A stretch of DNA of 64,000 bases from Anthopleura xanthogrammica. Lineage: Eukaryota; Cnidaria; Anthozoa; Actiniaria; Actiniidae. Shown here one piece after another: positions 21,141 to 63,312 of this stretch (position 1 is its first letter; each line of letters opens with the position of its first letter). The DNA lies in assembly GCA_964019055.1 (NCBI GenBank), contig OZ025220.1, forward strand, positions 1,256,334 to 1,320,333. The letters are read 5' to 3'. The position numbers and the translations under genes were made by a program. The notes under the pieces were generated by a model, which was not told the DNA's origin, ran no database searches, and saw only the letters and a program-made list of their open reading frames with translations.

Positions 21141-21978
21141 ACGCATTTGTGTTGAACAGTGTCATTTGTGTTGGGAAGCACGGGTGGCGTAGCGTAGCTG
21201 GTTTTTAATGGTTTTTACCCCCATGCATGAGATATGAAGAGGATACATACCCGATACTTTTACCCAGAAGTCCCACCGCCCCCTCGTGCTTATCTCCTAT
21301 CGCCGAGTTTTGCTGCGACAAACATTTTAATATTACAGGTACATATACCCTTGCACTGAGTCAGTGGGCTGGAAAAATATTTGAGATATAATACTCTCGC
21401 TGATTGTCTGGCTATCGTGTTAAATGGTGGGGTAAGACTGCTGTGTTTGTGGGGAGGGTCAATATTTTTTGAGCACCTATTTGCAGAGGGTCATCACCTT
21501 TTTAGCCTATTTTTTGGAAAATCACATTTCTGAGGTTCTCACTTTCAAAATATTTCAGGGGCATATTCCCCCAAAAACCGTTAGGTACCCCCGCTTTCGG
21601 CTACCATTATCCTCCCTCCCCCCACCCCCACCACAATTACTTTCCACAGTCCCTCTACAAGATATGCAACGAAATGTAGAACTTGGGGAAAATCTACTTA
21701 ATTTCGGAAACTTTTTAAGTCAAGAAGGTAAGTACACTTCTGATTTTTATATATCCGAAGCTTTATTTCCAAAATCTTAGCAAAATCTACAAAATCCTGG
21801 CAAAATGTATTTACTACATACATTCTCTTAAAGTGGATAGTCTGGGTTACCTGTGGTTTATGTTAGTTTAGTTCAACTGGGGTTCCTGTGGTGAATAGCA
21901 CAGAATCGAGGGTGTTTTATTTCCTGTTTGTAAATCCTTGTATTGATGGATCTGTAGTGAGTATAGTCTCACTAAAAC
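21141..21978. other. Intergenic, with SINE and MITE remnants and a possible upstream exon
   Basis: A remnant SINE head (GGGTGGCGTAGCG, ~21183) is cut short compared with the full one at 62598. A family B end fragment follows (~21235-21290). A possible exon at about 21650-21727 lies between CTTTCCACAG and GTAAGT, and its open frame contains MQRNVELGENLL. Its phase does not fit the proposed CAP-Gly start exon, so it may be 5' UTR or unrelated. Confidence 0.4.
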
Positions 21979-22422
21979 ATGGCCAACACACACAGGTACA
22001 TATTACTGAAGGACAGGATTGGGGAGCACTTGAAAAGAAAAGGAAATCGATGCCCACTTACTGGAGGTACACTCCTGGAGTGTTCACCAGGGTCAGAGCA
22101 GCCGAAAGATCCTAAAAATATCGCTCTTACAGTCATACCTACATGGAGGAACATCAGACTAGAATGCTCTAAGCTGGATGTTGGTCAGGTAACAGACAGC
22201 GAAGCTGACTTGCTTAATGCTGTCTCGACATATGAAGAAAGATTGCGTATTTATCTAGACAAGAATCGTCTACGTGAAGCAAAATTATTGGATATTGGTA
22301 GTAAAGTTTTTGTGAAGATAACAAAAAAAAATACAGAACTAGAACTTCGAGGAGGTATTCGTTACAAGGGAAGGTTACCTATATGCAGAGGTACTATGTT
22401 TGGCGTAGAACTGCTAGACAAG
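21979..22422 (+). CDS. Exon A: N-terminus and first half of CAP-Gly
   Basis: The ATG at 21979 is in a good context (AAAACATGG) with an in-frame TAA just upstream. The 148 codons end at the donor AAG|GTAAAG (phase 0). The segment LLNAVSTYEERLRIYLDKNR, followed by GGIRYKGRLP and MFGVELLDK, matches the lead-in and first half of a CYLD-type CAP-Gly domain. Only one copy exists in the window; the second kinase copy has no equivalent. If an unseen upstream exon splices in at AG 21995, the start would change. Confidence 0.72.
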
Positions 22423-25400: not shown

Positions 25401-28400
25401 TGACAAAATGCAAACAAATAACAAATTTCCTAGATCGAAATTACATATTTTTAGTCTAGCTAACACTAAATCATTTTGGAGGGGACAAACAAAATGGGAC
25501 CTTAATTTTAAGATTTGTGCACCCCCCTTTGGAAAATCCTGGATACGCCCCTGCACAAGTGCTCTCATGTAACCCTTCTCCCTGTCATGCGATTTCATTG
25601 GGTCTAGCTCCCCCTAATGAATTTTGTAAGGGTCAATAGCCCATTAGGTCAAAGACTAGCTCAGCCAATCAGAGCACAGACAAAAGCATATTATTTTGTC
25701 TAAAGCTACTAATGGTCCATCACGAATCCTGTGCTCTTATTGGCTGAGCTACTAGTGGTCTTTTAGTGGACCGGGCTGCCACAGGCAACCTGGTGAAAAG
25801 ATATTCTCAATTTTATAATGCAGTGTTTAAATCTAAATTTTCTTTTGTCTATCTTAGAAGTCTAGGCCTTATGGAAATATATTTATGGTAGAAATTTAAA
25901 AATTCAATAGTCGCTACAACCTCAGTATTCCCACATAAGCCAATTATCAGATCACTCGAAATTATATGGTTTCCCAGGACTTACAGTTTTTAGTGAAATG
26001 AGCAGGGTCTGTGTACAAGAATGCCCTATACCACTGTGACGTCACGGTTTGTTTACATAATAATAGATATGAAGGCCAATTCTTCTTTTGTTTGGAGTAT
26101 TTAGTGTAATATTTAACTGTAGTCATTTTCCAAAGATTACTTATTCTCTAATTTTAATTTTTTTCAATACATCCAGCTGATCTGAAATAGTGACGTACAA
26201 GTGATGTCACTGCAAAACTGAGGTGTCATGAAGACTGCGAAAATTAATTTATAAAAGTTTATATCTGAGATAAATCTAGATTTTCGGGAGAGGTTTTTGA
26301 TATTTTTTATTCATTTGCTATGATTTCTATCATTATTGAGTGGGATGATGAAATAAAGAATTAACCATTTCCCGAGTCGCTGGGATACTAGGGATGACAC
26401 CTGAGTTTTAAAAACTTTCTCGATTCTAATTTGTTAATATTTTTTCTCAGATCAGCTGGAAGATATATATGCAGGGCCGTAGCAAGCCTTGAAAAGCTGT
26501 TAGGGGAGGGGGGCACAAAGTTAATCCATAACACATGATCACAAGAAAACTATTATCAAATTCTTGATGTTTTTTGTTTTTTTTAACTGAGAGGGTCACG
26601 GGTACCCCCCCCCCCCCCCCGGCCCCTGTGGGTGCTACGGCTCAGATATGATGAAGTATATTAACTTGGATATATAGAAGATAGACAAACGATGAAATTC
26701 CAGTAGAAGGATTCACAGAAATTCAATAGTCTGTTTTCTTGATAGAAAATGTGAATATATATGTAAGAAAGAAAACAGACAACTTAGAACTGACTGTTCC
26801 AAGATTTTTTTCTTCAATAATGATGGTTAATCAGGTCTTGCGTGACATTTTAAATTTTAATCCAACAAAAAAGAAAATATAATATTTGAAAAGAGCATAG
26901 TAAAATTAGTAAAATTGGAAAGTTTGAAGTGGTTTTATTGAATAACGCCGAAGATAGTTGGCTGCTTCTACAGAGAAATGTATGGAAAAAATGTTGGGAG
27001 GCAACAGCTTGCCTCCCGAAATTTTTTCCATACATTTCTTTGTCAATTTTACGCAAGACCTGATAAACCCTCATTGTTTCAACCATTTGGTCTTCATCAG
27101 AACAAAATAAAATATAGAATATAGTAAAAATTATATAGTTAAGATAAAAAATGTATTAAATATTTTAATACATTTTTCTTTTAACTGTTGAAATCTCTTT
27201 AGGAATCAGTGATGGGATGTGATATACGTGTGAGTGATGGAACATAGGAATCAGTGATGGGATGTGATATACGTGTGAGTGATGGAACATAGGAATCAGT
27301 GATGGGATGTGATATACGTGTGAGTGATGGAACATAGGAATCAGTGATGGGATGTGATGATATACGTGTGAGTGATGGAACATAGGAATCAGTGATGGGA
27401 TGTGATATACGTGTGAGTGATGGAACATAGGAATCAGTGATGGGATGTGATATACGTGTGAGTGATGGAACATAGGAATCAGTGATGGGATGTGATATAC
27501 GTGTGAGTGATGGAACATAGGAATCAGTGATGGGATGTGATGATATACGTGTGAGTGATGGAACATAGGAATCAGTGATGGGATGTGATATACGTGTGAG
27601 TGATGGAACATAGGAATCAGTGATGGGATGTGATATACGTGTGAGTGATGGAACATAGGAATCAGTGATGGGATGTGATATACGTGTGAGTGATGGAACA
27701 TAGGAATCAGTGATGGGATGTGATGATATACGTGTGAGTGATGGAACATAGGAATCAGTGATGGGATGTGATATACGTGTGAGTGATGGAACATAGGAAT
27801 CAGTGATGGGATGTGATATACGTGTGAGTGATGGAACATAGGAATCAGTGATGGGATGTGATATACGTGTGAGTGATGGAACATAGGAATCAGTGATGGG
27901 ATGTGATGATATACGTGTGAGTGATGGAACATAGGAATCAGTGATGGGATGTGATATACGTGTGAGTGATGGAACATAGGAATCAGTGATGGGATGTGAT
28001 GATATACGTGTGAGTGATGGAACATAGGAATCAGTGATGGGATGTGATATACGTGTGAGTGATGGAACATAGGAATCAGTGATGGGATGTGATATACGTG
28101 TGAGTGATGGAACATAGGAATCAGTGATGGGATGTGATATACGTGTGAGTGATGGAACATAGGAATCAGTGATGGGATGTGATATACGTGTGAGTGATGG
28201 AACATAGGAATCAGTGATGGGATGTGATATACGTGTGAGTGATGGAACATAGGAATCAGTGATGGGATGTGATATACGTGTGAGTGATGGAACATAGGAA
28301 TCAGTGATGGGATGTGATATACGTGTGAGTGATGGAACATAGGAATCAGTGATGGGATGTGATATACGTGTGAGTGATGGAACATAGGAATCAGTGATGG

Positions 28401-31400
28401 GATGTGATATACGTGTGAGTGATGGAACATAGGAATCAGTGATGGGATGTGATATACGTGTGAGTGATGGAACATAGGAATCAGTGATGGGATGTGATAT
28501 ACGTGTGAGTGATGGAACATAGGAATCAGTGATGGGATGTGATATACGTGTGAGTGATGGAACATAGGAATCAGTGATGGGATGTGATATACGTGTGAGT
28601 GATGGAACATAGGAATCAGTGATGGGATGTGATATACGTGTGAGTGATGGAACATAGGAATCAGTGATGGGATGTGATATACGTGTGAGTGATGGAACAT
28701 AGGAATCAGTGATGGGATGTGATATACGTGTGAGTGATGGAACATAGGAATCAGTGATGGGATGTGATATACGTGTGAGTGATGGAACATAGGAATCAGT
28801 GATGGGATGTGATATACGTGTGAGTGATGGAACATAGGAATCAGTGATGGGATGTGATATACGTGTGAGTGATGGAACATAGGAATCAGTGATGGGATGT
28901 GATATACGTGTGAGTGATGGAACATAGGAATCAGTGATGGGATGTGATATACGTGTGAGTGATGGAACATAGGAATCAGTGATGGGATGTGATATACGTG
29001 TGAGTGATGGAACATAGGAATCAGTGATGGGATGTGATATACGTGTGAGTGATGGAACATAGGAATCAGTGATGGGATGTGATATACGTGTGAGTGATGG
29101 AACATAGGAATCAGTGATGGGATGTGATATACGTGTGAGTGATGGAACATAGGAATCAGTGATGGGATGTGATATACGTGTGAGTGATGGAACATAGGAA
29201 TCAGTGATGGGATGTGATATACGTGTGAGTGATGGAACATAGGAATCAGTGATGGGATGTGATATACGTGTGAGTGATGGAACATAGGAATCAGTGATGG
29301 GATGTGATATACGTGTGAGTGATGGAACATAGGAATCAGTGATGGGATGTGATATACGTGTGAGTGATGGAACATAGGAATCAGTGATGGGATGTGATAT
29401 ACGTGTGAGTGATGGAACATAGGAATCAGTGATGGGATGTGATATACGTGTGAGTGATGGAACATAGGAATCAGTGATGGGATGTGATATACGTGTGAGT
29501 GATGGAACATAGGAATCAGTGATGGGATGTGATGATGGAACATATTGGGGGAGAAGATATTTCACCTGCCCGGCAGGCCGTGGTATTTTTGTTGCAGTAG
29601 ATCAACTACGTCCTCGACAAGATCAAGATCAAGGTTTTAACCCACTTTCGATATTGTGGTTGAGTGATCACGCACAAAGCAATTCAAGGAGAGGCTCCGG
29701 GGAAATAAAAGAATGTATCAGGATTACTCCATTGTTTCCCCGTAGCCTCGTCTTGAGTTGCTTTGTGTGTGATCACTCAACCACAATAACGAAAGTGGGC
29801 TATTCTCTACTTTCACATTGCCCATAATACATTGCGGTTTGGGGGCAAAAATTTTGGTCAAAAAGTCAGTCATAAAATTAAACGTTCTGCAATCGAATGT
29901 ACACTATACCTGCTTTTATCTTTAAAATACTGATTATCAGTTCATTCTGAGTTATTTCCCCACATTCAGAACATCAAGAAGTTTAGTGTTATAGAAAATG
30001 TATTGGCTCGTGAAGAAGTGCTCAAAATTGACTTTATAGACTTCTTCAAAATTCTTTTTTTTAATGTTTCTGGCTGTTTCTTATACATCTTTAAATATCA
30101 TAAGATGCATTTACAACATCTTCTGATCAGCCTTCAGCAAAATATGTGCGGTTTTTACCCTGGTTACCCCCCAAACCGCAATGTATTATGGGCAATGTGA
30201 AAGTAGAGAATTTGTATAAAATTACTTGAAATTTCTTGATTTCTATTATGAGTGTTCTCTAATGAGTACGCGTGGACTGATTAAGCCTTAAATGCACTCT
30301 GCCTCATCATGTGATTCGGCCCTGTCCAAATCTGTTTACCATAACAACTATCAGTGATGAGCGTTTGTATGAAGTTATTGCATTTTCACCAGACATTTTA
30401 CATTTCGTTCGCTTAGTGTATCTGAGAGATAAAATCCCCATGCAACAAGAACACTCGTGAAATCAAAAGTTAACACCCTTTACGTGCCATAATGTTGGCA
30501 TCACGAAAGGCGGCAAAGTCGAGGGAATGGACTACTTCGACGATGAGGCGGCCAAATTGAATCTTAATTAATGAAAATAACTTTTTACGATAAAGAAAAA
30601 AAAAAAAATCCTGGGTTTCTCTGACCCTATCATGCTGGTTAAGTGACAAGCATTTCATTTTTCTACGTAGTATCAGTCATTATTTTCACATCTTGAATCG
30701 CAATGCATTATGGGGCGTCCAGGGGGCAAAAGAAAACAAAAATGTCGTTTAAAATAAAGAGTTTCGTTTATTTGTCTTTCTTTCGTGCCCATCTTCTTAA
30801 TTCATCTCTTGTTAAGTTGTCTAGGGGTGAAACGTTAATTTTAATCGACGCCATAAGTGTAACAAATATTTGTATATTTGCCCCCTACCAAAATGGCCGC
30901 CGTATCGTCGAAGTAGTCCATGGGAGCGAGGGAAACCTTTAGGCCAACCACTATTCCATAATTTTCAATTATGATTCACTCACTTTTAAATTCACCATCT
31001 CGTTTACTAGAGTACTCACAGTTAATCTGTAAAACAGTACCAATTTATTTTCCAATTTGCACTAAATCAGTAGAGCTATTTACTACAAATTAGAGCTAAT
31101 TGCATATTAGAATACTGTTTCACAGATCTAGTGTTTTCACTCTAGTAAGCCAATCACAGAGTTTGAGAACTGTTAATTACAGTTAATAAAATTTTCTTTT
31201 TTTCGAAACAGAAGAATGTATTCAGGAAAGCGATGGACGTTTTGCTGAACTGGTTACATCTTTAGATGAAGAAAGAAAGATACGCGAAGAAGTAGAAAGG
31301 CGTCTTCATAGCACCGAGCAGAGATCACATGAGCTTGAGTTATCATTAGCTTCGGAGAGACAAGCAAGAGAAGAAACAGAGAGACATCTTGGCAGTAACG

Positions 31401-32743
31401 AGCAGAGATTAAATCAATCGGAGACATCGTTGTCCGTAGAAAGACAAGCACACCAAGAAACAGAGAGACGCCTTCGCAGTAACGAGCAAAGATTAAATCA
31501 ATCGGAGACCTCGTTATCCGCAGAAAGACAAGCACACCAAGAAACAGAGAGACGCCTTCGCAGTAACGAGCAAAGATTAAATCAATCGGAGACATCGTTA
31601 TCCGCAGAAAGACAAGCACACCAAGAAACAGAGAGACGCCTTCAAAGCAGCGAGGAGAGGTCACACGAACTTGTAGGTACGCTGACCACAGTACGACAAG
31701 CCTATGAAGACTACCAAAGATCTATAGAGTCGACATGCGATTGGATCGTAAGCCGGGATGAAATAATATTGTCTGATAACGTAATTGGTGTCGGAGCATG
31801 GGGCGAGGTGAAAGAAGGAACATTTCGGGGATGTAAAGTTGCTGTGAAGAAAATCCACGAGCTTATTTTATCTGATCACAACAGAAGTCTGTTTGAACGA
31901 GAGATGAATATGGCATCAAGATGTCGTCATCCTTGTCTTCTGCAGTTCATTGGAGCAACAAACGATGCGGACCAAAGTCCTCTTTTTGTGACTGAACTCC
32001 TAGACACTAGTCTAAGATCAGTTTTACGTGATCGGCCTTTGGAACCTCCTGAGATCACAACCATTGCACTAGATGTTGCCAAAGGGTTAAACTACTTACA
32101 TCTGAGCCATCCAGCTCCAATCATTCACCGAGACATCAGCAATGCTAATGTGTTATTATGGAAACATGTCACTATTTGGCGGGCCAAAGTGTCCGATTAT
32201 GGGACGGCCAACTTCCTGCAGCATACCATGACGGCTTGTCCTGGTGCTGTTGCGTACTCTGCTCCTGAGGCACAGACGTCCAGACAATCACCAAAGGTAC
32301 AACCTGCATTTCAGTTGAGCTATGTCGATTTGCACTCCAACGCACACACTAAACTAGATAATACAGTAAAAACCCACATAAAAGAACCACTATTTTCCCA
32401 AGTCAGGCTGTAATGGTTCTTATATATTTGGTATTTAGTGAGAAATCAGGCTGAGTAGGTTCTTAACAGGTTCTTATTTACAAGACAAAAGGAATTGTTA
32501 TGTTTCTTCCTAGCTGTAATGGTTCTTACTCTTTCTCTACAGCTTGATGTGTACAGCTTTGGAGTTCTGCTGTGCGAGATGAACGTTCGTCAAATGCCTG
32601 ACGTAGAACGCAGAAACGTACAAGTTGCCATGGTGACCAACGATTTGTTCAGGAACCTGATCAGAAGATGTTTACAACAGAACCCAGAAGAACGTCCTTC
32701 CATGGCAGAAATCATAGAGACGCTTGAAAACTCCCAACAGTAA
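21979..32743 (+). CDS. CAP-Gly (CYLD-like)–coiled coil–TKL kinase gene, copy 1
   Basis: Four exons join in phase: A 21979-22422, B 29513-29633, C 31212-32296 and D 32543-32743, giving 616 residues. Residues ~72-188 are a CAP-Gly domain, a microtubule/peptide-tail binding fold, closest to the first CAP-Gly of CYLD: the EERL...DKNRL lead-in, GGIRYKGRLP, FGVELL, then GCDDGTYWGRRYF and FVAVDQL. Residues ~195-350 are a coiled coil with 28-residue repeats. Residues ~375-616 are a TKL-type kinase: GVGAWGEV (Gly381), VAVKK (Lys401), IIHRDISNANVLL (Asp496, Asn501), SDYG (Asp517), APE (539-541), DVYSFGVLLCEM. No CYLD peptidase is present. The natural acceptor of exon B (27202) now leads into a satellite with an in-frame stop, so a full-length product needs splicing to the last repeat's AG. 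Joining A to B is inferred from phase and domain fit. Confidence 0.7.
22423..22804. other. Intron start, no feature seen
   Basis: AT-rich start of the ~7.1 kb intron between CAP-Gly exons A and B. It has an A-run near 22543 but no recognisable repeat or exon. Confidence 0.4.
22805..24828. mobile_element. Large foldback (TIR) element, interrupted
   Basis: The left end (~22815-22865: AAAGTGCCTATATATGTG, ACACATCAGACAAT) and its continuation after an insertion (23545-23646: AAATTACATAGTTTGAGTGA) are inverted at 24654-24825 (TCACTCAAACTATGTAATTT, ATTGTCAGATGTGTTG, GGCACTTTAA). The whole is about 2.0 kb, with a C-run at about 24440. I found no transposase frame. Confidence 0.7.
22866..23545. mobile_element. 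Nested MITE inside the large foldback element
   Basis: CACCTATTTCAAAAAAGGCG at the left is inverted near 23505-23535 (ACCTTTTTTGAAATAGGT). It splits the left arm of the 22805-24828 element, so it is the younger insertion. It holds a further hairpin at about 23247-23397 (ACAATTATTGGATGAGGTTA and its inverse). Confidence 0.72.
24829..25600. other. Intron sequence, no gene seen
   Basis: AT-rich with loosely repeated GGGAAA/CCCAAT-type motifs at about 24920-25160. The end of a transposon-like GGATACGCCCCTG sequence lies at about 25540. No coding signal beyond short chance frames. Confidence 0.4.
25615..25800. mobile_element. Partial MITE family C
   Basis: AGCTCAGCCAATCAGAGCAC and its inverse GTGCTCTTATTGGCTGAGCT flank a short core. 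The ends resemble the elements at 14446 and 18457 but are diverged. Confidence 0.55.
26270..26465. repeat. Dispersed repeat D
   Basis: GGGAGAGGTTTTTGATATTT through TTCTCAGATCAGCTGGAAG matches 60555-60735 with substitutions. The last ~55 bp also matches 3235-3290. Confidence 0.6.
26466..26645. mobile_element. Short MITE with a C-run
   Basis: GGGCCGTAGCAAGCC at the left and GGTGCTACGGCTCAG at the right are partly inverted. The core has GGGGAGGGGGGCAC and a ~16-bp C-run. Confidence 0.5.
26976..27048. repeat. Perfect hairpin
   Basis: AGAAATGTATGGAAAAAATG and TTGGGAGGCAA on the left pair with TTGCCTCCCGAAATTTTTTC and CATACATTTCT on the right around a CAGC loop. The arms are about 31 bp. It lies 155 bp upstream of the satellite. 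Confidence 0.85.
27203..29512. repeat. Minisatellite array 1 (45/48-bp unit) inside the CAP-Gly exon
   Basis: Exactly 51 units fit: 46 of 45 bp and 5 of 48 bp (46x45+5x48=2310). The unit starts GAATCAGTGATGGGATGTGA, has GTGAGT in its second half and ends GGAACATAG. The array begins at the base after the intron's polypyrimidine-AG (CTCTTTAG, ending 27202) and runs directly into CAP-Gly exon B at 29513. The 48-bp units carry an extra GAT, and four of the five recur every 183 bp at the proximal end. Read in the gene frame each unit ends in TAG. The reverse strand is stop-free in two frames, so the long - frames are artefacts. Confidence 0.97.
29513..29633 (+). CDS. Exon B: second half of CAP-Gly (last, uninterrupted repeat unit)
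   Basis: The final unit lacks the 15-bp insert, so GAATCAGTGATGGG continues as coding sequence: ESVMGCDDGTYWGRRYFTCP, then FVAVDQLRP. This gives the DG-xxx-GxRYF signature of a CAP-Gly second half, which fits the first half at 21979-22422. The upstream AG is ATAG from the preceding repeat, with no pyrimidine tract, so it is a weak acceptor. The exon ends CAAG|GTTTTA (phase 1), which joins exon C. The copy at 53390-53525 has a longer loop and no Gly before RYF. Confidence 0.75.
29640..29808. mobile_element. Foldback MITE in intron B-C
   Basis: CCACTTTCGATATTGTGGTT at the left is inverted near 29785-29808 (CCACAATAACGAAAGTGG). The arms of about 65 bp include GTGATCACGCACAAAGCAAT. The copy-2 version (53531-53670) has lost the outer right end. 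Confidence 0.8.
29803..30214. mobile_element. Foldback MITE with 45-bp arms
   Basis: ATTCTCTACTTTCACATTGC at the left and GCAATGTGAAAGTAGAGAAT at the right bound about 410 bp. The copy-2 equivalent is at 53669-54060. Both copies have it, so it predates the duplication. Confidence 0.82.
30525..30922. mobile_element. MITE insertion unique to copy 1
   Basis: TGGACTACTTCGACGATGAG at the left is inverted as ATCGTCGAAGTAGTCCA at the right. In copy 2 the surrounding sequence (GGCGGCAAAGTCGAGGGAA, then GCGAGGGAAA) runs on with only a few bases between (~54358-54395), so that site looks empty. Confidence 0.8.
31212..32296 (+). CDS. Exon C: coiled coil and kinase N-lobe to activation segment, copy 1
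   Basis: 361 codons with a phase-1 entry and a phase-0 exit (AAAG|GTACAA). The first ~150 residues contain an 84-bp (28-residue, four-heptad) tandem repeat with the core SNEQRLNQSETS; three near-identical repeats follow more degenerate ones. The kinase then runs from VIGVGAWGEV through VAVKK, the hinge VTELLDTSL, IIHRDISNANVLL, VSDYG and APE. Catalytic Lys, Asp, Asn and the metal-binding Asp are all present. DYG replaces the usual DFG. Confidence 0.9.
32543..32743 (+). CDS. Exon D: kinase C-lobe, copy 1
   Basis: The acceptor TCTCTACAG ends at 32542. LDVYSFGVLLCEM supplies the conserved Asp-x-Tyr-Ser-Phe-Gly of the kinase C-lobe, and RRCLQQNPEERPSMAEII is the end-of-domain Arg motif. Stop TAA at 32741-32743. 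The intron is only 246 bp, against 1503 bp in copy 2. Confidence 0.9.
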   Translation, partial: LDVYSFGVLLCEMNVRQMPDVERRNVQVAMVTNDLFRNLIRRCLQQNPEERPSMAEIIETLENSQQ

Positions 32744-32860: not shown

Positions 32861-32967
32861 TACCGCCTTCATAGGCTCTTTCTAATTGCAAAAATTATCA
32901 CTACAATATTATGTATCAGTCAGCGCCGGCATATACAATAAACCCGCGTACAGCGCCTATTCTAGCA

Positions 32968-35900
32968 GTGAGTGATGGAACATAGGAATCAGTGATGGGA
33001 TGTGATGATATACGTGTGAGTGATGGAACATAGGAATCAGTGATGGGATGTGATGTACGTGTGAGTGATGGAACATAGGAATCAGTGATGGGATGTGATA
33101 TACGTGTGAGTGATGGAACATAGGAATCAGTGATGGGATGTGATATACGTGTGAGTGATGGAACATAGGAATCAGTGATGGGATGTGATATACGTGTGAG
33201 TGATGGAACATAGGAATCAGTGATGGGATGTGATATACGTGTGAGTGATGGAACATAGGAATCAGTGATGGGATGTGATATACGTGTGAGTGATGGAACA
33301 TAGGAATCAGTGATGGGATGTGATATACGTGTGAGTGATGGAACATAGGAATCAGTGATGGGATGTGATATACGTGTGAGTGATGGAACATAGGAATCAG
33401 TGATGGGATGTGATATACGTGTGAGTGATGGAACATAGGAATCAGTGATGGGATGTAATATACGTGTGAGTGATGGAACATAGGAATCAGTGATGGGATG
33501 TGATATACGTGTGAGTGATGGAACATAGGAATCAGTGATGGGATGTGATATACGTGTGAGTGATGGAACATAGGAATCAGTGATGGGATGTGATATACGT
33601 GTGAGTGATGGAACATAGGAATCAGTGATGGGATGTGATATACGTGTGAGTGATGGAACATAGGAATCAGTGATGGGATGTGATGATATACGTGTGAGTG
33701 ATGGAACATAGGAATCAGTGATGGGATGTGATATACGTGTGAGTGATGGAACATAGGAATCAGTGATGGGATGTGATGATATACGTGTGAGTGATGGAAC
33801 ATAGGAATCAGTGATGGGATGTGATATACGTGTGAGTGATGGAACATAGGAATCAGTGATGGGATGTGATATACGTGTGAGTGATGGAACATAGGAATCA
33901 GTGATGGGATGTGATGATATACGTGTGAGTGATGGAACATAGGAATCAGTGATGGGATGTGATATACGTGTGAGTGATGGAACATAGGAATCAGTGATGG
34001 GATGTGATGATATACGTGTGAGACGTGTGAGTGATGGAACATAGGAATCAGTGATGGGATGTGATATACGTGTGAGTGATGGAACATAGGAATCAGTGAT
34101 GGGATGTGATATACGTGTGAGTGATGGAACATAGGAATCAGTGATGGGATGTGATATACGTGTGAGTGATGGAACATAGGAATCAGTGATGGGATGTGAT
34201 ATACGTGTGAGTGATGGAACATAGGAATCAGTGATGGGATGTGATATACGTGTGAGTGATGGAACATAGGAATCAGTGATGGGATGTGATATACGTGTGA
34301 GTGATGGAACATAGGAATCAGTGATGGGATGTGATATACGTGTGAGTGATGGAACATAGGAATCAGTGATGGGATGTGATATACGTGTGAGTGATGGAAC
34401 ATAGGAATCAGTGATGGGATGTGATATACGTGTGAGTGATGGAACATAGGAATCAGTGATGGGATGTGATATACGTGTGAGTGATGGAACATAGGAATCA
34501 GTGATGGGATGTGATATACGTGTGAGTGATGGAACATAGGAATCAGTGATGGGATGTGATATACGTGTGAGTGATGGAACATAGGAATCAGTGATGGGAT
34601 GTGATATACGTGTGAGTGATGGAACATAGGAATCAGTGATGGGATGTGATATACGTGTGAGTGATGGAACATAGGAATCAGTGATGGGATGTGATATACG
34701 TGTGAGTGATGGAACATAGGAATCAGTGATGGGATGTGATATACGTGTGAGTGATGGAACATAGGAATCAGTGATGGGATGTGATATACGTGTGAGTGAT
34801 GGAACATAGGAATCAGTGATGGGATGTGATATACGTGTGAGTGATGGAACATAGGAATCAGTGATGGGATGTGATATACGTGTGAGTGATGGAACATAGG
34901 AATCAGTGATGGGATGTGATATACGTGTGAGTGATGGAACATAGGAATCAGTGATGGGATGTGATATACGTGTGAGTGATGGAACATAGGAATCAGTGAT
35001 GGGATGTGATATACGTGTGAGTGATGGAACATAGGAATCAGTGATGGGATGTGATGATATACGTGTGAGTGATGGAACATAGGAATCAGTGATGGGATGT
35101 GATGATATACGTGTGAGTGATGGAACATAGGAATCAGTGATGGGATGTGATATACGTGTGAGTGATGGAACATAGGAATCAGTGATGGGATGTGATATAC
35201 GTGTGAGTGATGGAACATAGGAATCAGTGATGGGATGTGATATACGTGTGAGTGATGGAACATAGGAATCAGTGATGGGATGTGATATACGTGTGAGTGA
35301 TGGAACATAGGAATCAGTGATGGGATGTGATATACGTGTGAGTGATGGAACATAGGAATCAGTGATGGGATGTGATATACGTGTGAGTGATGGAACATAG
35401 GAATCAGTGATGGGATGTGATATACGTGTGAGTGATGGAACATAGGAATCAGTGATGGGATGTGATATACGTGTGAGTGATGGAACATAGGAATCAGTGA
35501 TGGGATGTGATATACGTGTGAGTGATGGAACATAGGAATCAGTGATGGGATGTGATATACGTGTGAGTGATGGAACATAGGAATCAGTGATGGGATGTGA
35601 TATACGTGTGAGTGATGGAACATAGGAATCAGTGATGGGATGTGATATACGTGTGAGTGATGGAACATAGGAACGTGTGAGTGATGGAACATAGGAATCA
35701 GTGATGGGATGTGATATACGTGTGAGTGATGGAACATAGGAATCAGTGATGGGATGTGATATACGTGTGAGTGATGGAACATAGGAATCAGTGATGGGAT
35801 GTGATATACGTGTGAGTGATGGAACATAGGAATCAGTGATGGGATGTGATATACGTGTGAGTGATGGAACATAGGAATCAGTGATGGGATGTGATATACG

Positions 35901-38900
35901 TGTGAGTGATGGAACATAGGAATCAGTGATGGGATGTGATATACGTGTGAGTGATGGAACATAGGAATCAGTGATGGGATGTGATATACGTGTGAGTGAT
36001 GGAACATAGGAATCAGTGATGGGATGTGATATACGTGTGAGTGATGGAACATAGGAATCAGTGATGGGATGTGATATACGTGTGAGTGATGGAACATAGG
36101 AATCAGTGATGGGATGTGATATACGTGTGAGTGATGGAACATAGGAATCAGTGATGGGATGTGATATACGTGTGAGTGATGGAACATAGGAATCAGTGAT
36201 GGGATGTGATATACGTGTGAGTGATGGAACATAGGAATCAGTGATGGGATGTGATATACGTGTGAGTGATGGAACATAGGAATCAGTGATGGGATGTGAT
36301 ATACGTGTGAGTGATGGAACATAGGAATCAGTGATGGGATGTGATATACGTGTGAGTGATGGAACATAGGAATCAGTGATGGGATGTGATATACGTGTGA
36401 GTGATGGAACATAGGAATCAGTGATGGGATGTGATATACGTGTGAGTGATGGAACATAGGAATCAGTGATGGGATGTGATATACGTGTGAGTGATGGAAC
36501 ATAGGAATCAGTGATGGGATGTGATATACGTGTGAGTGATGGAACATAGGAATCAGTGATGGGATGTGATATACGTGTGAGTGATGGAACATAGGAATCA
36601 GTGATGGGATGTGATATACGTGTGAGTGATGGAACATAGGAATCAGTGATGGGATGTGATATACGTGTGAGTGATGGAACATAGGAATCAGTGATGGGAT
36701 GTGATATACGTGTGAGTGATGGAACATAGGAATCAGTGATGGGATGTGATATACGTGTGAGTGATGGAACATAGGAATCAGTGATGGGATGTGATATACG
36801 TGTGAGTGATGGAACATAGGAATCAGTGATGGGATGTGATATACGTGTGAGTGATGGAACATAGGAATCAGTGATGGGATGTGATATACGTGTGAGTGAT
36901 GGAACATAGGAATCAGTGATGGGATGTGATATACGTGTGAGTGATGGAACATAGGAATCAGTGATGGGATGTGATATACGTGTGAGTGATGGAACATAGG
37001 AATCAGTGATGGGATGTGATATACGTGTGAGTGATGGAACATAGGAATCAGTGATGGGATGTGATATACGTGTGAGTGATGGAACATAGGAATCAGTGAT
37101 GGGATGTGATATACGTGTGAGTGATGGAACATAGGAATCAGTGATGGGATGTGATATACGTGTGAGTGATGGAACATAGGAATCAGTGATGGGATGTGAT
37201 ATACGTGTGAGTGATGGAACATAGGAATCAGTGATGGGATGTGATATACGTGTGAGTGATGGAACATAGGAATCAGTGATGGGATGTGATATACGTGTGA
37301 GTGATGGAACATAGGAATCAGTGATGGGATGTGATATACGTGTGAGTGATGGAACATAGGAATCAGTGATGGGATGTGATATACGTGTGAGTGATGGAAC
37401 ATAGGAATCAGTGATGGGATGTGATATACGTGTGAGTGATGGAACATAGGAATCAGTGATGGGATGTGATATACGTGTGAGTGATGGAACATAGGAATCA
37501 GTGATGGGATGTGATATACGTGTGAGTGATGGAACATAGGAATCAGTGATGGGATGTGATATACGTGTGAGTGATGGAACATAGGAATCAGTGATGGGAT
37601 GTGATATACGTGTGAGTGATGGAACATAGGAATCAGTGATGGGATGTGATATACGTGTGAGTGATGGAACATAGGAATCAGTGATGGGATGTGATATACG
37701 TGTGAGTGATGGAACATAGGAATCAGTGATGGGATGTGATATACGTGTGAGTGATGGAACATAGGAATCAGTGATGGGATGTGATATACGTGTGAGTGAT
37801 GGAACATAGGAATCAGTGATGGGATGTGATATACGTGTGAGTGATGGAACATAGGAATCAGTGATGGGATGTGATATACGTGTGAGTGATGGAACATAGG
37901 AATCAGTGATGGGATGTGATATACGTGTGAGTGATGGAACATAGGAATCAGTGATGGGATGTGATATACGTGTGAGTGATGGAACATAGGAATCAGTGAT
38001 GGGATGTGATATACGTGTGAGTGATGGAACATAGGAATCAGTGATGGGATGTGATATACGTGTGAGTGATGGAACATAGGAATCAGTGATGGGATGTGAT
38101 ATACGTGTGAGTGATGGAACATAGGAATCAGTGATGGGATGTGATATACGTGTGAGTGATGGAACATAGGAATCAGTGATGGGATGTGATATACGTGTGA
38201 GTGATGGAACATAGGAATCAGTGATGGGATGTGATATACGTGTGAGTGATGGAACATAGGAATCAGTGATGGGATGTGATATACGTGTGAGTGATGGAAC
38301 ATAGGAATCAGTGATGGGATGTGATATACGTGTGAGTGATGGAACATAGGAATCAGTGATGGGATGTGATATACGTGTGAGTGATGGAACATAGGAATCA
38401 GTGATGGGATGTGATATACGTGTGAGTGATGGAACATAGGAATCAGTGATGGGATGTGATATACGTGTGAGTGATGGAACATAGGAATCAGTGATGGGAT
38501 GTGATATACGTGTGAGTGATGGAACATAGGAATCAGTGATGGGATGTGATATACGTGTGAGTGATGGAACATAGGAATCAGTGATGGGATGTGATATACG
38601 TGTGAGTGATGGAACATAGGAATCAGTGATGGGATGTGATATACGTGTGAGTGATGGAACATAGGAATCAGTGATGGGATGTGATGATATACGTGTGAGT
38701 GATGGAACATAGGAATCAGTGATGGGATGTGATGATATACGTGTGAGTGATGGAACATAGGAATCAGTGATGGGATGTGATATACGTGTGAGTGATGGAA
38801 CATAGGAATCAGTGATGGGATGTGATATACGTGTGAGTGATGGAACATAGGAATCAGTGATGGGATGTGATATACGTGTGAGTGATGGAACATAGGAATC

Positions 38901-41900
38901 AGTGATGGGATGTGATATACGTGTGAGTGATGGAACATAGGAATCAGTGATGGGATGTGATATACGTGTGAGTGATGGAACATAGGAATCAGTGATGGGA
39001 TGTGATATACGTGTGAGTGATGGAACATAGGAATCAGTGATGGGATGTGATATACGTGTGAGTGATGGAACATAGGAATCAGTGATGGGATGTGATATAC
39101 GTGTGAGTGATGGAACATAGGAATCAGTGATGGGATGTGATATACGTGTGAGTGATGGAACATAGGAATCAGTGATGGGATGTGATATACGTGTGAGTGA
39201 TGGAACATAGGAATCAGTGATGGGATGTGATATACGTGTGAGTGATGGAACATAGGAATCAGTGATGGGATGTGATATACGTGTGAGTGATGGAACATAG
39301 GAATCAGTGATGGGATGTGATATACGTGTGAGTGATGGAACATAGGAATCAGTGATGGGATGTGATATACGTGTGAGTGATGGAACATAGGAATCAGTGA
39401 TGGGATGTGATATACGTGTGAGTGATGGAACATAGGAATCAGTGATGGGATGTGATATACGTGTGAGTGATGGAACATAGGAATCAGTGATGGGATGTGA
39501 TATACGTGTGAGTGATGGAACATAGGAATCAGTGATGGGATGTGATATACGTGTGAGTGATGGAACATAGGAATCAGTGATGGGATGTGATATACGTGTG
39601 AGTGATGGAACATAGGAATCAGTGATGGGATGTGATATACGTGTGAGTGATGGAACATAGGAATCAGTGATGGGATGTGATATACGTGTGAGTGATGGAA
39701 CATAGGAATCAGTGATGGGATGTGATATACGTGTGAGTGATGGAACATAGGAATCAGTGATGGGATGTGATATACGTGTGAGTGATGGAACATAGGAATC
39801 AGTGATGGGATGTGATATACGTGTGAGTGATGGAACATAGGAATCAGTGATGGGATGTGATATACGTGTGAGTGATGGAACATAGGAATCAGTGATGGGA
39901 TGTGATATACGTGTGAGTGATGGAACATAGGAATCAGTGATGGGATGTGATATACGTGTGAGTGATGGAACATAGGAATCAGTGATGGGATGTGATATAC
40001 GTGTGAGTGATGGAACATAGGAATCAGTGATGGGATGTGATATACGTGTGAGTGATGGAACATAGGAATCAGTGATGGGATGTGATATACGTGTGAGTGA
40101 TGGAACATAGGAATCAGTGATGGGATGTGATATACGTGTGAGTGATGGAACATAGGAATCAGTGATGGGATGTGATATACGTGTGAGTGATGGAACATAG
40201 GAATCAGTGATGGGATGTGATATACGTGTGAGTGATGGAACATAGGAATCAGTGATGGGATGTGATATACGTGTGAGTGATGGAACATAGGAATCAGTGA
40301 TGGGATGTGATATACGTGTGAGTGATGGAACATAGGAATCAGTGATGGGATGTGATATACGTGTGAGTGATGGAACATAGGAATCAGTGATGGGATGTGA
40401 TATACGTGTGAGTGATGGAACATAGGAATCAGTGATGGGATGTGATGATACGTGTGAGTGATGGAACATAGGAATCAGTGATGGGATGTGATATACGTGT
40501 GAGTGATGGAACATAGGAATCAGTGATGGGATGTGATATACGTGTGAGTGATGGAACATAGGAATCAGTGATGGGATGTGATATACGTGTGAGTGATGGA
40601 ACATAGGAATCAGTGATGGGATGTGATATACGTGTGAGTGATGGAACATAGGAATCAGTGATGGGATGTGATATACGTGTGAGTGATGGAACATAGGAAT
40701 CAGTGATGGGATGTGATATACGTGTGAGTGATGGAACATAGGAATCAGTGATGGGATGTGATATACGTGTGAGTGATGGAACATAGGAATCAGTGATGGG
40801 ATGTGATATACGTGTGAGTGATGGAACATAGGAATCAGTGATGGGATGTGATATACGTGTGAGTGATGGAACATAGGAATCAGTGATGGGATGTGATATA
40901 CGTGTGAGTGATGGAACATAGGAATCAGTGATGGGATGTGATATACGTGTGAGTGATGGAACATAGGAATCAGTGATGGGATGTGATATACGTGTGAGTG
41001 ATGGAACATAGGAATCAGTGATGGGATGTGATATACGTGTGAGTGATGGAACATAGGAATCAGTGATGGGATGTGATATACGTGTGAGTGATGGAACATA
41101 GGAATCAGTGATGGGATGTGATATACGTGTGAGTGATGGAACATAGGAATCAGTGATGGGATGTGATATACGTGTGAGTGATGGAACATAGGAATCAGTG
41201 ATGGGATGTGATATACGTGTGAGTGATGGAACATAGGAATCAGTGATGGGATGTGATAACGTGTGAGTGATGGAACATAGGAATCAGTGATGGGATGTGA
41301 TATACGTGTGAGTGATGGAACATAGGAATCAGTGATGGGATGTGATATACGTGTGAGTGATGGAACATAGGAATCAGTGATGGGATGTGATATACGTGTG
41401 AGTGATGGAACATAGGAATCAGTGATGGGATGTGATATACGTGTGAGTGATGGAACATAGGAATCAGTGATGGGATGTGATATACGTGTGAGTGATGGAA
41501 CATAGGAATCAGTGATGGGATGTGATATACGTGTGAGTGATGGAACATAGGAATCAGTGATGGGATGTGATATACGTGTGAGTGATGGAACATAGGAATC
41601 AGTGATGGGATGTGATATACGTGTGAGTGATGGAACATAGGAATCAGTGATGGGATGTGATATACGTGTGAGTGATGGAACATAGGAATCAGTGATGGGA
41701 TGTGATATACGTGTGAGTGATGGAACATAGGAATCAGTGATGGGATGTGATGATACGTGTGAGTGATGGAACATAGGAATCAGTGATGGGATGTGATATA
41801 CGTGTGAGTGATGGAACATAGGAATCAGTGATGGGATGTGATATACGTGTGAGTGATGGAACATAGGAATCAGTGATGGGATGTGATATACGTGTGAGTG

Positions 41901-44900
41901 ATGGAACATAGGAATCAGTGATGGGATGTGATATACGTGTGAGTGATGGAACATAGGAATCAGTGATGGGATGTGATATACGTGTGAGTGATGGAACATA
42001 GGAATCAGTGATGGGATGTGATATACGTGTGAGTGATGGAACATAGGAATCAGTGATGGGATGTGATATACGTGTGAGTGATGGAACATAGGAATCAGTG
42101 ATGGGATGTGATATACGTGTGAGTGATGGAACATAGGAATCAGTGATGGGATGTGATATACGTGTGAGTGATGGAACATAGGAATCAGTGATGGGATGTG
42201 ATATACGTGTGAGTGATGGAACATAGGAATCAGTGATGGGATGTGATATACGTGTGAGTGATGGAACATAGGAATCAGTGATGGGATGTGATATACGTGT
42301 GAGTGATGGAACATAGGAATCAGTGATGGGATGTGATATACGTGTGAGTGATGGAACATAGGAATCAGTGATGGGATGTGATATACGTGTGAGTGATGGA
42401 ACATAGGAATCAGTGATGGGATGTGATATACGTGTGAGTGATGGAACATAGGAATCAGTGATGGGATGTGATATACGTGTGAGTGATGGAACATAGGAAT
42501 CAGTGATGGGATGTGATATACGTGTGAGTGATGGAACATAGGAATCAGTGATGGGATGTGATATACGTGTGAGTGATGGAACATAGGAATCAGTGATGGG
42601 ATGTGATATACGTGTGAGTGATGGAACATAGGAATCAGTGATGGGATGTGATATACGTGTGAGTGATGGAACATAGGAATCAGTGATGGGATGTGATATA
42701 CGTGTGAGTGATGGAACATAGGAATCAGTGATGGGATGTGATATACGTGTGAGTGATGGAACATAGGAATCAGTGATGGGATGTGATATACGTGTGAGTG
42801 ATGGAACATAGGAATCAGTGATGGGATGTGATATACGTGTGAGTGATGGAACATAGGAATCAGTGATGGGATGTGATATACGTGTGAGTGATGGAACATA
42901 GGAATCAGTGATGGGATGTGATATACGTGTGAGTGATGGAACATAGGAATCAGTGATGGGATGTGATATACGTGTGAGTGATGGAACATAGGAATCAGTG
43001 ATGGGATGTGATATACGTGTGAGTGATGGAACATAGGAATCAGTGATGGGATGTGATATACGTGTGAGTGATGGAACATAGGAATCAGTGATGGGATGTG
43101 ATATACGTGTGAGTGATGGAACATAGGAATCAGTGATGGGATGTGATATACGTGTGAGTGATGGAACATAGGAATCAGTGATGGGATGTGATATACGTGT
43201 GAGTGATGGAACATAGGAATCAGTGATGGGATGTGATATACGTGTGAGTGATGGAACATAGGAATCAGTGATGGGATGTGATATACGTGTGAGTGATGGA
43301 ACATAGGAATCAGTGATGGGATGTGATATACGTGTGAGTGATGGAACATAGGAATCAGTGATGGGATGTGATATACGTGTGAGTGATGGAACATAGGAAT
43401 CAGTGATGGGATGTGATATACGTGTGAGTGATGGAACATAGGAATCAGTGATGGGATGTGATATACGTGTGAGTGATGGAACATAGGAATCAGTGATGGG
43501 ATGTGATATACGTGTGAGTGATGGAACATAGGAATCAGTGATGGGATGTGATATACGTGTGAGTGATGGAACATAGGAATCAGTGATGGGATGTGATATA
43601 CGTGTGAGTGATGGAACATAGGAATCAGTGATGGGATGTGATATACGTGTGAGTGATGGAACATAGGAATCAGTGATGGGATGTGATATACGTGTGAGTG
43701 ATGGAACATAGGAATCAGTGATGGGATGTGATATACGTGTGAGTGATGGAACATAGGAATCAGTGATGGGATGTGATATACGTGTGAGTGATGGAACATA
43801 GGAATCAGTGATGGGATGTGATATACGTGTGAGTGATGGAACATAGGAATCAGTGATGGGATGTGATATACGTGTGAGTGATGGAACATAGGAATCAGTG
43901 ATGGGATGTGATATACGTGTGAGTGATGGAACATAGGAATCAGTGATGGGATGTGATATACGTGTGAGTGATGGAACATAGGAATCAGTGATGGGATGTG
44001 ATATACGTGTGAGTGATGGAACATAGGAATCAGTGATGGGATGTGATATACGTGTGAGTGATGGAACATAGGAATCAGTGATGGGATGTGATATACGTGT
44101 GAGTGATGGAACATAGGAATCAGTGATGGGATGTGATATACGTGTGAGTGATGGAACATAGGAATCAGTGATGGGATGTGATATACGTGTGAGTGATGGA
44201 ACATAGGAATCAGTGATGGGATGTGATATACGTGTGAGTGATGGAACATAGGAATCAGTGATGGGATGTGATATACGTGTGAGTGATGGAACATAGGAAT
44301 CAGTGATGGGATGTGATATACGTGTGAGTGATGGAACATAGGAATCAGTGATGGGATGTGATATACGTGTGAGTGATGGAACATAGGAATCAGTGATGGG
44401 ATGTGATATACGTGTGAGTGATGGAACATAGGAATCAGTGATGGGATGTGATATACGTGTGAGTGATGGAACATAGGAATCAGTGATGGGATGTGATATA
44501 CGTGTGAGTGATGGAACATAGGAATCAGTGATGGGATGTGATATACGTGTGAGTGATGGAACATAGGAATCAGTGATGGGATGTGATATACGTGTGAGTG
44601 ATGGAACATAGGAATCAGTGATGGGATGTGATATACGTGTGAGTGATGGAACATAGGAATCAGTGATGGGATGTGATATACGTGTGAGTGATGGAACATA
44701 GGAATCACAGTGATGGGATGTGATATACGTGTGAGTGATGGAACATAGGAATCAGTGATGGGATGTAATATACGTGTGAGTGATGGAACATAGGAATCAG
44801 TGATGGGATGTGATATACGTGTGAGTGATGGAACATAGGAATCAGTGATGGGATGTGATATACGTGTGAGTGATGGAACATAGGAATCAGTGATGGGATG

Positions 44901-47900
44901 TGATATACGTGTGAGTGATGGAACATAGGAATCAGTGATGGGATGTGATATACGTGTGAGTGATGGAACATAGGAATCAGTGATGGGATGTGATATACGT
45001 GTGAGTGATGGAACATAGGAATCAGTGATGGGATGTGATATACGTGTGAGTGATGGAACATAGGAATCAGTGATGGGATGTGATATACGTGTGAGTGATG
45101 GAACATAGGAATCAGTGATGGGATGTGATATACGTGTGAGTGATGGAACATAGGAATCAGTGATGGGATGTAATATACGAGTGAGTGATGGAAACATAGG
45201 AATCAGTGATGGGATGTAATATACGTGTGAGTGATGGAACATAGGAATCAGTGATGGGATGTGATATACGTGTGAGTGATGGAACATAGGAATCAGTGAT
45301 GGGATGTGATATACGTGTGAGTGATGGAACATAGGAATCAGTGATGGGATGTGATATACGTGTGAGTGATGGAACATAGGAATCAGTGATTGGATGTGAT
45401 ATACGTGTGAGTGATGGAACATAGGAATCAGTGATGGGATGTGATATACGTGTGAGTGATGGAACATAGGAATCAGTGATGGATGGAATATACGTGTGAG
45501 TGATGGAACATAGGAATCAGTGATGGGATGTGATATACGTGTGAGTGATGGAACATAGGAATCAGTGATGGGATGTGATATACGTGTGAGTGATGGAACA
45601 TAGGAATCAGTGATGGGATGTGATATACGTGTGAGTGATGGAACATAGGAATCAGTGATGGGATGTGATATACGTGTGAGTGATGGAACATAGGAGGAAT
45701 CAGTGATGGGATGTGATATACGTGTGAGTGATGGAACATAGGAATCAGTGATGGGATGTGATATACGTGTGAGTGATGGAACATAGGAATCAGTGATGGG
45801 ATGTGATATACGTGTGAGTGATGGAACATAGGAATCAGTGATGGGATGTGATATACGTGTGAGTGATGGAACATAGGAATCAGTGATGGGATGTGATATA
45901 CGTGTGAGTGATGGAACATAGGAATCAGTGATGGGATGTGATATACGTGTGAGTGATGGAACATAGGAATCAGTGATGGGATGTGATATACGTGTGAGTG
46001 ATGGAACATAGGAATCAGTGATGGGATGTGATATACGTGTGAGTGATGGAACATAGGAATCAGTGATGGGATGTGATATACGTGTGAGTGATGGAACATA
46101 GGAATCAGTGATGGGATGTGATATACGTGTGAGTGATGGAACATAGGAATCAGTGATGGGATGTAATATACGTGTGAGTGATGGAACATAGGAATCAGTG
46201 ATGGGATGTGATATACGTGTGAGTGATGGAACATAGGAATCAGTGATGGGATGTGATATACGTGTGAGTGATGGAACATAGGAATCAGTGATGGGATGTG
46301 ATATACGTGTGAGTGATGGAACATAGGAATCAGTGATGGGATGTGATATACGTGTGAGTGATGGAACATAGGAATCAGTGATGGGATGTGATATACGTGT
46401 GAGTGATGGAACATAGGAATCAGTGATGGGATGTGATATACGTGTGAGTGATGGAACATAGGAATCAGTGATGGGATGTGATATACGTGTGAGTGATGGA
46501 ACATAGGAATCAGTGATGGGATGTAATATACGTGTGAGTGATGGAACATAGGAATCAGTGATGGGATGTGATATACGTGTGAGTGATGGAACATAGGAAT
46601 CAGTGATGGGATGTGATATACGTGTGAGTGATGGAACATAGGAATCAGTGATGGGATGTGATATACGTGTGAGTGATGGAACATAGGAATCAGTGATGGG
46701 ATGTGATATACGTGTGAGTGATGGAACATAGGAATCAGTGATGGGATGTGATATACGTGTGAGTGATGGAACATAGGAATCAGTGATGGGATGTGATATA
46801 CGTGTGAGTGATGGAACATAGGAATCAGTGATGGGATGTGATATACGTGTGAGTGATGGAACATAGGAATCAGTGATGGATGTGATATACGTGTGAGTGA
46901 TGGAACATAGGAATCAGTGATGGGATGTGATATACGTGTGAGTGATGGAACATAGGAATCAGTGATGGGATGTGATATACGTGTGAGTGATGGAACATAG
47001 GAATCAGTGATGGGATGTGATATACGTGTGAGTGATGGAACATAGGAATCAGTGATGGGATGTGATATACGTGTGAGTGATGGAACATAGGAATCAGTGA
47101 TGGGATGTGATATACGTGTGAGTGATGGAACATAGGAATCAGTGATGGGATGTGATATACGTGTGAGTGATGGAACATAGGAATCAGTGATGGGATGTGA
47201 TATACGTGTGAGTGATGGAACATAGGAATCAGTGATGGGATGTGATATACGTGTGAGTGATGGAACATAGGAATCAGTGATGGGATGTGATATACGTGTG
47301 AGTGATGGAACATAGGAATCAGTGATGGGATGTGATATACGTGTGAGTGATGGAACATAGGAATCAGTGATGGGATGTGATATACGTGTGAGTGATGGAA
47401 CATAGGAATCAGTGATGGGATGTGATATACGTGTGAGTGATGGAACATAGGAATCAGTGATGGGATGTGATATACGTGTGAGTGATGGAACATAGGAATC
47501 AGTGATGGGATGTGATATACGTGTGAGTGATGGAACATAGGAATCAGTGATGGGATGTGATATACGTGTGAGTGATGGAACATAGGAATCAGTGATGGGA
47601 TGTGATATACGTGTGAGTGATGGAACATAGGAATCAGTGATGGGATGTAATATACGTGTGAGTGATGGAACATAGGAATCAGTGATGGATGTGATATACG
47701 TGTGAGTGATGGAACATAGGAATCAGTGATGGGATGTGATATACGTGTGAGTGATGGAACATAGGAATCAGTGATGGGATGTGATATACGTGTGAGTGAT
47801 GGAACATAGGAATCAGTGATGGGATGTGATATACGTGTGAGTGATGGAACATAGGAATCAGTGATGGGATGTGATATACGTGTGAGTGATGGAACATAGG

Positions 47901-62560: not shown

Positions 62561-62593
62561 ACGCATTTGTGTTGAACAGTGTCATTTGTGTTG

Positions 62594-62715
62594 GGAAGCA
62601 CGGGTGGCGTAGCGGTGAGAGCGCTCGCCTCTCACCAATGCGACCCAGGTACGAGTTCCCTCTGGCTCGGTGTTGTATGTGAGTAGAGTTTCCGCCACAG
62701 AGGGCCACAGGTTCG
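62594..62715 (+). mobile_element. tRNA-derived SINE head (full in copy 2)
   Basis: GGGTGGCGTAGCGGTGAGAG resembles a tRNA 5' half with A box, and GGTACGAGTTCCCTC a B box. Copy 1 (about 21183) has the first 13 bases and then jumps to the sequence after the element, suggesting deletion there. Confidence 0.7.
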
Positions 62716-63129
62716 TCAGCCACTTACCAAATCGCTGGTTTTTAATCAGGTTTTTACCCCCATGCATGAGATATGACGAGCATACATACCCGATACTTTT
62801 ACCCAGAAGTCCCGCCCCCTCGTGTCTCCTATCGTCGAAATTGGCTGCGACAAACATTTTAAAATTACTGGTACATATACCCTTGCACTGAGTCAGTGGG
62901 CTGGAAAAATATTTGAGATATAATGCTCTCGCTGATTGGCTGGCTATCGTGTTAAATGGTGGGGTAAGGCTGCTGTGTTTGTGGGGAGGGTCAATATTTT
63001 TTGAGCACCTATTTGCAGAGGGTCAGGGACTTTTGAGCCTATTTTGTGGAAAATCACATTTCTGAGGTTCTCACTTTCAAAATATTTCAGGGGGTGTCCC
63101 CCAAAAACCCTTAGGTACCCCCGCTTTCG

Positions 63130-63312
63130 GCTGTAATCAGATCTGTACTGTAAATTTATAACCGTTGGTAACGCACTCTCTATAAAGCATTGAATGCTTT
63201 ATAGACGGTGCGTTACATTCAAACAACACAGGCAACCCATAAAGAGCACGTTACCGACGGTTATCAATTTACAGTACAGATGAGTACAGATCTGATTACA
63301 GCTTGTGTAACC
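63130..63312. mobile_element. Foldback MITE, ~180 bp
   Basis: GCTGTAATCAGATCTGTACT at the left pairs with AGTACAGATCTGATTACAGC at the right. A further internal hairpin contains CTATAAAGCATTGAATGCTT. It lies where similarity to copy 1 fades. Confidence 0.85.

Follow-up and report, generated by a model that had tools for sequence, protein, structure and literature searches.

A single-locus minisatellite probably born at an intron-exon boundary of a CAP-Gly/kinase gene in a sea anemone

Introduction

The stretch of DNA analysed here, referred to as the window, comprises 64,000 nucleotides of the sea anemone Anthopleura xanthogrammica (C15:1256334-1320333, within a 290-Mb assembly) and includes two members of a CAP-Gly/kinase gene family, gene 1 and gene 2, together with two tandem arrays of a shared repeat unit (Table 1). 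Array 1 lies inside gene 1 and array 2 between the two genes; together they amount to ~22.6 kb and ~500 head-to-tail copies. Very probably, the repeat is a minisatellite that arose when a segment spanning the junction of intron 1 and exon 2 of a CAP-Gly/kinase gene was duplicated in tandem. To our knowledge, satellites can seldom be traced to their source. The single-copy ancestor of this one persists in the same genome, in a dozen sister genes, and the birth of the repeat can therefore be read base by base, including the bases that were taken, the position of the join, and the units nearest to the exon.

Table 1. Features of the window, in window coordinates
Feature	Coordinates	Strand	Evidence or remark
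Gene 1 exon 1: ATG, N-terminal region, first half of CAP-Gly	21979..22422	+	148-codon open frame
Authentic intron-1 acceptor with pyrimidine-rich tract, ending ...TCTCTTTAG	27163..27202	+	Sequence; sister genes laid out alike
Array 1: 51 tandem units	27203..29512	+	Between acceptor at 27202 and exon 2 at 29513
Gene 1 exon 2: final unit copy, then remainder of CAP-Gly exon	29513..29633	+	Open frame 29513-29827
Gene 1 exon 3: coiled coil (84-bp repeats) plus opening portion of protein kinase domain	31212..32296	+	Pkinase, E 3.7e-24
Gene 1 exon 4: kinase domain end and TAA stop	32543..32743	+	PK_Tyr_Ser-Thr, E 2.1e-06
End of dispersed element, cut off by array 2	32915..32969	+	At least 39 other matches on many contigs (40 of 73 candidates scored)
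Array 2: 447 units	32968..53292	+	Unit and orientation as array 1; from gene 1 3' flank to gene 2 intron 1
Gene 2 exon 2: short-form, unexpanded, begins GAATCAGAGGGATGTGG	53390..53525	+	

Gene 1 and its internal array

The splice sites of gene 1 were read from the sequence by the authors. Exon 1 is followed directly by the donor GTAAAG. The CAP-Gly domain is split over exons 1 and 2, the first part giving a weak CAP_GLY match (E 0.038, profile positions 7-34 of 65, under the curated cut-off) and the second a match with E 8.1e-08 (positions 37-64 of 65), and the protein kinase domain is divided between exons 3 and 4. Joining the four exons via the last repeat copy yields an open frame of 616 amino acids.

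Array 1 is 2.3 kb long, with 46 of its 51 units identical to one 45-mer and the other five to a 48-mer carrying an extra GAT. It is flush with the authentic boundary inside gene 1, and its final copy is the exon start itself (from 29513). The initial annotation had placed the array between the base after the acceptor AG and the second CAP-Gly exon, and this is confirmed. Every unit ends in TAG, which supplies an acceptor-like AG as well as a stop codon in the exon frame. Counting the exon copy, there are 52 TAG/GAATCAG sites (the slash marks the boundary) and 51 occurrences of GTGAGT, so that AG and GT splice signals are kept in the copies. The unit spans the intron-exon boundary, with at most one to three intronic bases. 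It is longer than the corresponding part of the gene 1 exon copy by 12 bases in the 45-bp form and by 15 bases in the 48-bp form. Nothing was detected in the window with Rfam.

Correspondence of the unit with sister exon starts

A protein search with the gene 2 exon found 42 loci in the genome; with a long-form exon as query the number was 48, the additions being weak matches. Exon starts could be parsed at 34 of the 42 loci, leaving out three without the script anchor and five without a recognisable AG/GAATCAG. The parsed starts are of two kinds, designated short-form (GAATCAGAGGGATGTGG...) and long-form. Of the 34, 12 long-form starts, comprising six distinct sequences, align without gaps and in register with the 44 exon-derived bases of the unit, agreeing at 32-37 of 44 positions. 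By the same count, short-form exons score 18-23, the shortened copy in gene 1 scores 27, and L072, a long-form start with six additional bases, scores 25; L031, which lacks the first nine bases, is long-form by eye. The best background score was 26 over 348,018 scanned positions, a total that includes masked positions and exon neighbourhoods, which were set aside. The closest sister exon, L036, agrees with the unit at 37 of 44 positions, as compared with a best of 25 among 20,000 letter shuffles. Chance similarity between unit and sister exon was rejected on these background and shuffle maxima.

Each unit of array 1 consists of bases 1-44 of a long-form CAP-Gly exon 2 (bases 1-47 in the 48-bp form) followed by G, whereas base 45 is T in all six distinct long-form exons. 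Read in the exon frame, the unit translates as ESVMGCDIRVSDGT and L036 as ESVSGCYTYVSDGT. A BLAST search of the own genome with 135 bp of array DNA, run before the two forms were recognised, returned 21 matches in array 1 and the L036 exon start, the latter in register with E 2.4e-7; two of three candidates were scored, and array 2 was absent from the matches listed. On this alignment, the unit reads as the start of a long-form exon, complete over bases 1-44, plus the acceptor G. The sequence comparison strongly supports a coding exon start as the seed of the repeat.

The initial annotation had described the unit as ~31 exon bases with a 15-bp insert. The seed instead comprises 44 exon bases and the acceptor G, and the supposed insert is original exon sequence, because the 12 long-form exons match all 44 bases gap-free; what exceeds the gene 1 exon copy is 12 or 15 bases, depending on the form. 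Derivation of the 45-bp form from the 48-bp form by loss of a GAT is likewise not favoured, since the 12 long-form sister exons agree in length with the 45-bp form, but it may still hold, given a 48-bp variant with an ancestral base (variant E, below).

At the remaining 41 exon-2 loci, examined over 0.7 to 3.1 kb apiece, Tandem Repeats Finder reported array 2, at the gene 2 locus, as the sole array of this unit and no tandem copies at the intron-exon 2 boundary.

The family comprises ~40 CAP-Gly/kinase exon-2 copies in clusters on C15 and C6 (loci L009-L038 and L069-L078). Loop lengths vary strongly on either side of DGT (GCDDGT, GCGDNDGT, GCYTDLTDGT, GCDTYLKVTDGT). Most copies are in frame, with broken frames at L074 and L078. 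At L015, L016, and L017 the exon-2 boundary lacks the usual TTAG/GAATC, for which a later GAG may substitute.

Confinement to one locus

At up to three mismatches, a 30-mer across the unit junction has 496 occurrences in the 290-Mb assembly, all of them within the window; the reversed-pattern control gave 0, and copies more diverged than three mismatches would escape this search. The first 21 bases of the unit, searched with the same tolerance, gave 506 forward and 15 reverse matches genome-wide (control, 1 and 1), of which 496 are in the window and 25 outside it, five of the latter being long-form exons. None of the 25 outside sites has the unit junction at up to three mismatches. An older, genome-wide satellite was thus rejected as the source, and the case that the initial annotation had named as fatal to exon seeding, the same satellite in older form at unrelated loci, was not encountered within this tolerance. 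The arrays share with satellites a long, homogenised, head-to-tail organisation; abundance at many loci or in heterochromatic blocks is not found, the junction being present in the window only. Because the array is confined to one locus, its stricter name is a single-locus minisatellite, of satellite length.

Array 2 and the first exon of gene 2

Array 2 is a homogenised head-to-tail array of 20.3 kb. Division by script resolved its units into 18 forms, including one 93-bp double unit and one 24-bp stub, and 370 of the 447 are the same 45-mer. It does not adjoin an exon boundary. On the left it cuts a dispersed element, which runs on uncut as GCAGTTAA in five of nine other loci read and diverges just ahead of the cut point in the other four. 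One of the five, L089, occupies the equivalent 3' flank of a sister gene. The right end lies 97 bases upstream of the gene 2 exon, where sister introns run on without an array. The initial annotation was correct in describing that exon as unexpanded. Its broader proposal, that a coding exon seeded at least 22.6 kb of satellite, is supported as to exon origin and size. Array 2 did not grow in place from the gene 2 exon: it starts inside the dispersed element and ends in the gene 2 intron.

Among the exon-1 matches listed, none falls between C15:1278755 (gene 1 exon 1) and C15:1322233. Gene 2 therefore seems to have lost its first exon, and array 2 occupies the place expected for it; the array may have cost the neighbouring gene this exon.

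Variant E, a 48-bp form with the extra GAT, accounts for six of the 447 units and lies at or near the right edge. Its position 26 is A, as in all six distinct gap-free long-form exons, whereas the main unit has G. The variant agrees with the expectation that array edges retain older forms, notwithstanding its base at position 22.

That gene 1 had simply been duplicated in tandem in recent times, giving rise to array 2, was rejected on the ~8% divergence of the gene 2 flank and the unexpanded state of the gene 2 exon. The two array ends are similar in phase, as insertion of a circle would have it, but this similarity is weak (~13 in 45 by chance) and was not used.

On the minus strand, array 2 is mostly free of stop codons, and a mechanical open frame of 4665 codons (32916-46913) shows no gene-like sign.

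Proposed origin and alternatives

The 45-bp stretch that was duplicated would have consisted of the last intron base and bases 1-44 of a long-form exon 2 (ESV.GC...VSDGT). A tandem duplication of this extent would leave a G at base 45, as the unit has. The join may be written ...ACATA/GGAATCAG, with TA probably common to both break points; it recreates TAG/GAATCAG, and an acceptor-like site and an exon-frame stop would therefore recur in every copy. Slippage or unequal exchange could then have expanded and homogenised the repeat to 51 copies at gene 1. The terminal exon copy presumably lost 12 bases, and the gap may reflect either a later deletion or the seam at which a long-form array meets a short-form exon. 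A block of units would later have been joined in, with the dispersed element downstream of gene 1 on one side and the first intron of gene 2 on the other; the arrangement is read directly, and we infer the order and mechanism.

Since array 1 is flush with acceptor and exon, seeding in place is favoured, and gene 1's own exon is a somewhat better candidate for the seed than that of a sister. Several observations weigh against the proposed origin as a whole. The 12 long-form matches are mutual relatives, so that their six distinct sequences are not independent, and 20 of the 21-base matches outside the window lie beyond the five recognised long-form exons. The base at position 22 of variant E is found in none of the six long-form exons, and the variant also carries the extra GAT. 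Array 2 exceeds array 1 in both size and variety, and its 20 kb are known from the sequence of a single assembly. The gene 1 exon after the repeat (GGAACATATTGGGGGA) resembles the short-form sisters L010-L013, its intron is closest to that of the short-form L018, and in a tree of downstream flanks gene 1 is paired with short-form gene 2 at 89/86, a value below the 95/80 mark of the tree tool, which left the fork unstarred.

Because exon remainder, intron, and flank look short-form, the seed was possibly not the exon of gene 1 itself. The repeat may have begun in another long-form sister exon, perhaps one lost between genes 1 and 2, and reached gene 1 by recombination or gene conversion, long-form repeats being fused onto a short-form exon at the common GATGGAACATA. 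This is a real possibility, though less probable than not. The sequence of gene 1 beyond GGAACATA has the short-form appearance that such a fusion would give, and long- and short-form genes are interspersed in the sister cluster. However, L031 combines a long start (by eye) with a short-form flank and no array, and seeding in a sister takes one event more than seeding in place. Long-form rows do not form one group in the flank tree: L032-L035 stand apart, L031 falls among short-form rows, and the rest have no resolved position. Exon-start form and flank were therefore not inherited together.

Array 2, being larger and more varied, is possibly older, in which case array 1 would be its copy. The 447 units in 18 forms and the exon-like base of right-edge units speak for this order, which is nevertheless unlikely: neither end of array 2 is in exon register, one lying in the dispersed element and the other ahead of the gene 2 exon, whereas array 1 abuts both acceptor and exon. 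Misplacement of repeat copies during assembly is a much slighter prospect. The layout depends on one assembly, and a lancelet locus with a comparable repeat is reported as aberrantly assembled in a draft (PMC3087553); yet array 1 is just 2.3 kb, and the two arrays differ in their variants and in both flanks. That an independent satellite was inserted and replaced the exon start, the exon deriving from the repeat, was already disfavoured and is extremely improbable: the gene 1 exon start does depart from its short-form sisters where it is identical to the unit, but 12 single-copy exons on C15 have similar 44 bases in register without boundary arrays, and the unit junction occurs nowhere else at up to three mismatches.

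Predicted effect on gene 1

Through seeding at the boundary, a coding exon would have become repetitive DNA in which the splice site of the exon recurs together with a stop codon. The authentic first acceptor has 13 pyrimidines of 20 at positions -23 to -4, whereas every one of the 51 copied sites has 7. By reading frame, 46 of the 52 acceptors are predicted to lead to a stop after 162 residues and five to a stop after 163, and the last alone to give the 616-residue product. Judging from these signals, the array is most likely functionless and an obstruction to gene 1, with the strong first acceptor predicted to direct synthesis of a 162-residue protein; gene 1 would then be expected to be damaged or weakly expressed.

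There is a small chance that the array is becoming a protein cassette made by splicing, in which in-frame mini-exons of 27 nt extend from an acceptor TAG to the donor-like GTGAGT. The candidate mini-exon encodes ESVMGCDIR (27 nt; 30 nt in the 48-bp form). Were this the case, any number of mini-exons together with the last copy would lengthen the CAP-Gly loop, which is already variable in length across the gene family, and the remaining array would serve as a satellite intron.

Comparison with known boundary repeats

Mirage minisatellites of lancelets, described in Adh3, the globins BflGb6 and BflGb9, troponin C, and PGBD5, are in-gene tandem repeats of an intron-exon boundary that adjoin the authentic one, as array 1 does, although in another phylum (PMC3087553, PMC3902484). 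Many copy the AG and GT splice signals, and the Adh3 units measure 10-72 bp. In contrast to these, the anemone unit includes about one intron base and no pyrimidine tract, and an in-frame stop occurs in every copy. Copy number also differs, with 51 units and a block of 447 outside the exon here as compared with 6 and 3 in the BflGb6 haplotypes. The lancelet mirages are said to leave regular splicing undisturbed (PMC3087553, PMC3902484), whereas splicing in the anemone is predicted from sequence.

Human genes in segmental duplications contain variable internal tandem repeats that may sit at exon-intron boundaries and can create novel introns (PMC2812944). These too are minisatellites of young paralogous genes, with units averaging 30 bp, but they average 4 units and 160 bp, as compared with 51 and 447 units here, and a new intron in the anemone array would be conjectural. 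Introns can also be gained when an exon segment containing a proto-splice site is duplicated in tandem (PMC2891723), a route that the present case resembles in that a duplication of coding sequence creates new AG sites. The anemone unit additionally holds a donor-like GTGAGT, and, unlike that system, its stretch starts at an existing acceptor and was expanded to an array. Ribosomal DNA spacers or transposable elements can likewise seed satellites from known genomic sequence (PMC5615363, a review); the anemone array differs in having the start of a protein-coding exon as its seed and in being limited to one locus.

Because boundary tandem repeats are known from lancelets and human duplicated genes, the anemone array is an extreme variant of such repeats. 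Boundary minisatellites would thereby extend from lancelets and human to a cnidarian, at far greater length. Titles and the beginnings of abstracts, with poor coverage of subscription journals, mentioned no cnidarian satellite that had arisen from a coding exon.

Homologues and other features of the window

Exon 1 of gene 1 has 45 matches in its own genome at E<=0.001. Among named homologues, the one closest to the kinase exon comes from the sea anemone Actinia tenebrosa (61% identity). Protein searches with the N-terminal part matched one coral CAP-Gly/kinase protein, two CAP-Gly proteins of a different kind, one of them named a ubiquitinyl hydrolase, and two unnamed fragments resembling exon 1; these searches recovered no exon 2 from a named anemone.

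The 84-bp (28-codon) repeats of the exon 3 coiled coil lie at 31371-31643 and 54824-55096; at sister loci the period is 42, 63, or 84 bp, and copy number varies. Intron 1 of gene 1 harbours a probable small inverted-repeat element (26824-27070, ends ...ATCAGGTCTTGCGT / ACGCAAGACCTGAT... by eye), which is skipped where sister introns align to gene 1. Elsewhere in the window, 19329-21602 and 60772-63132 are near-identical copies (pieces of 97% and 92%) that resemble a 3' gene end and may encode a CPEB-type zinc domain.

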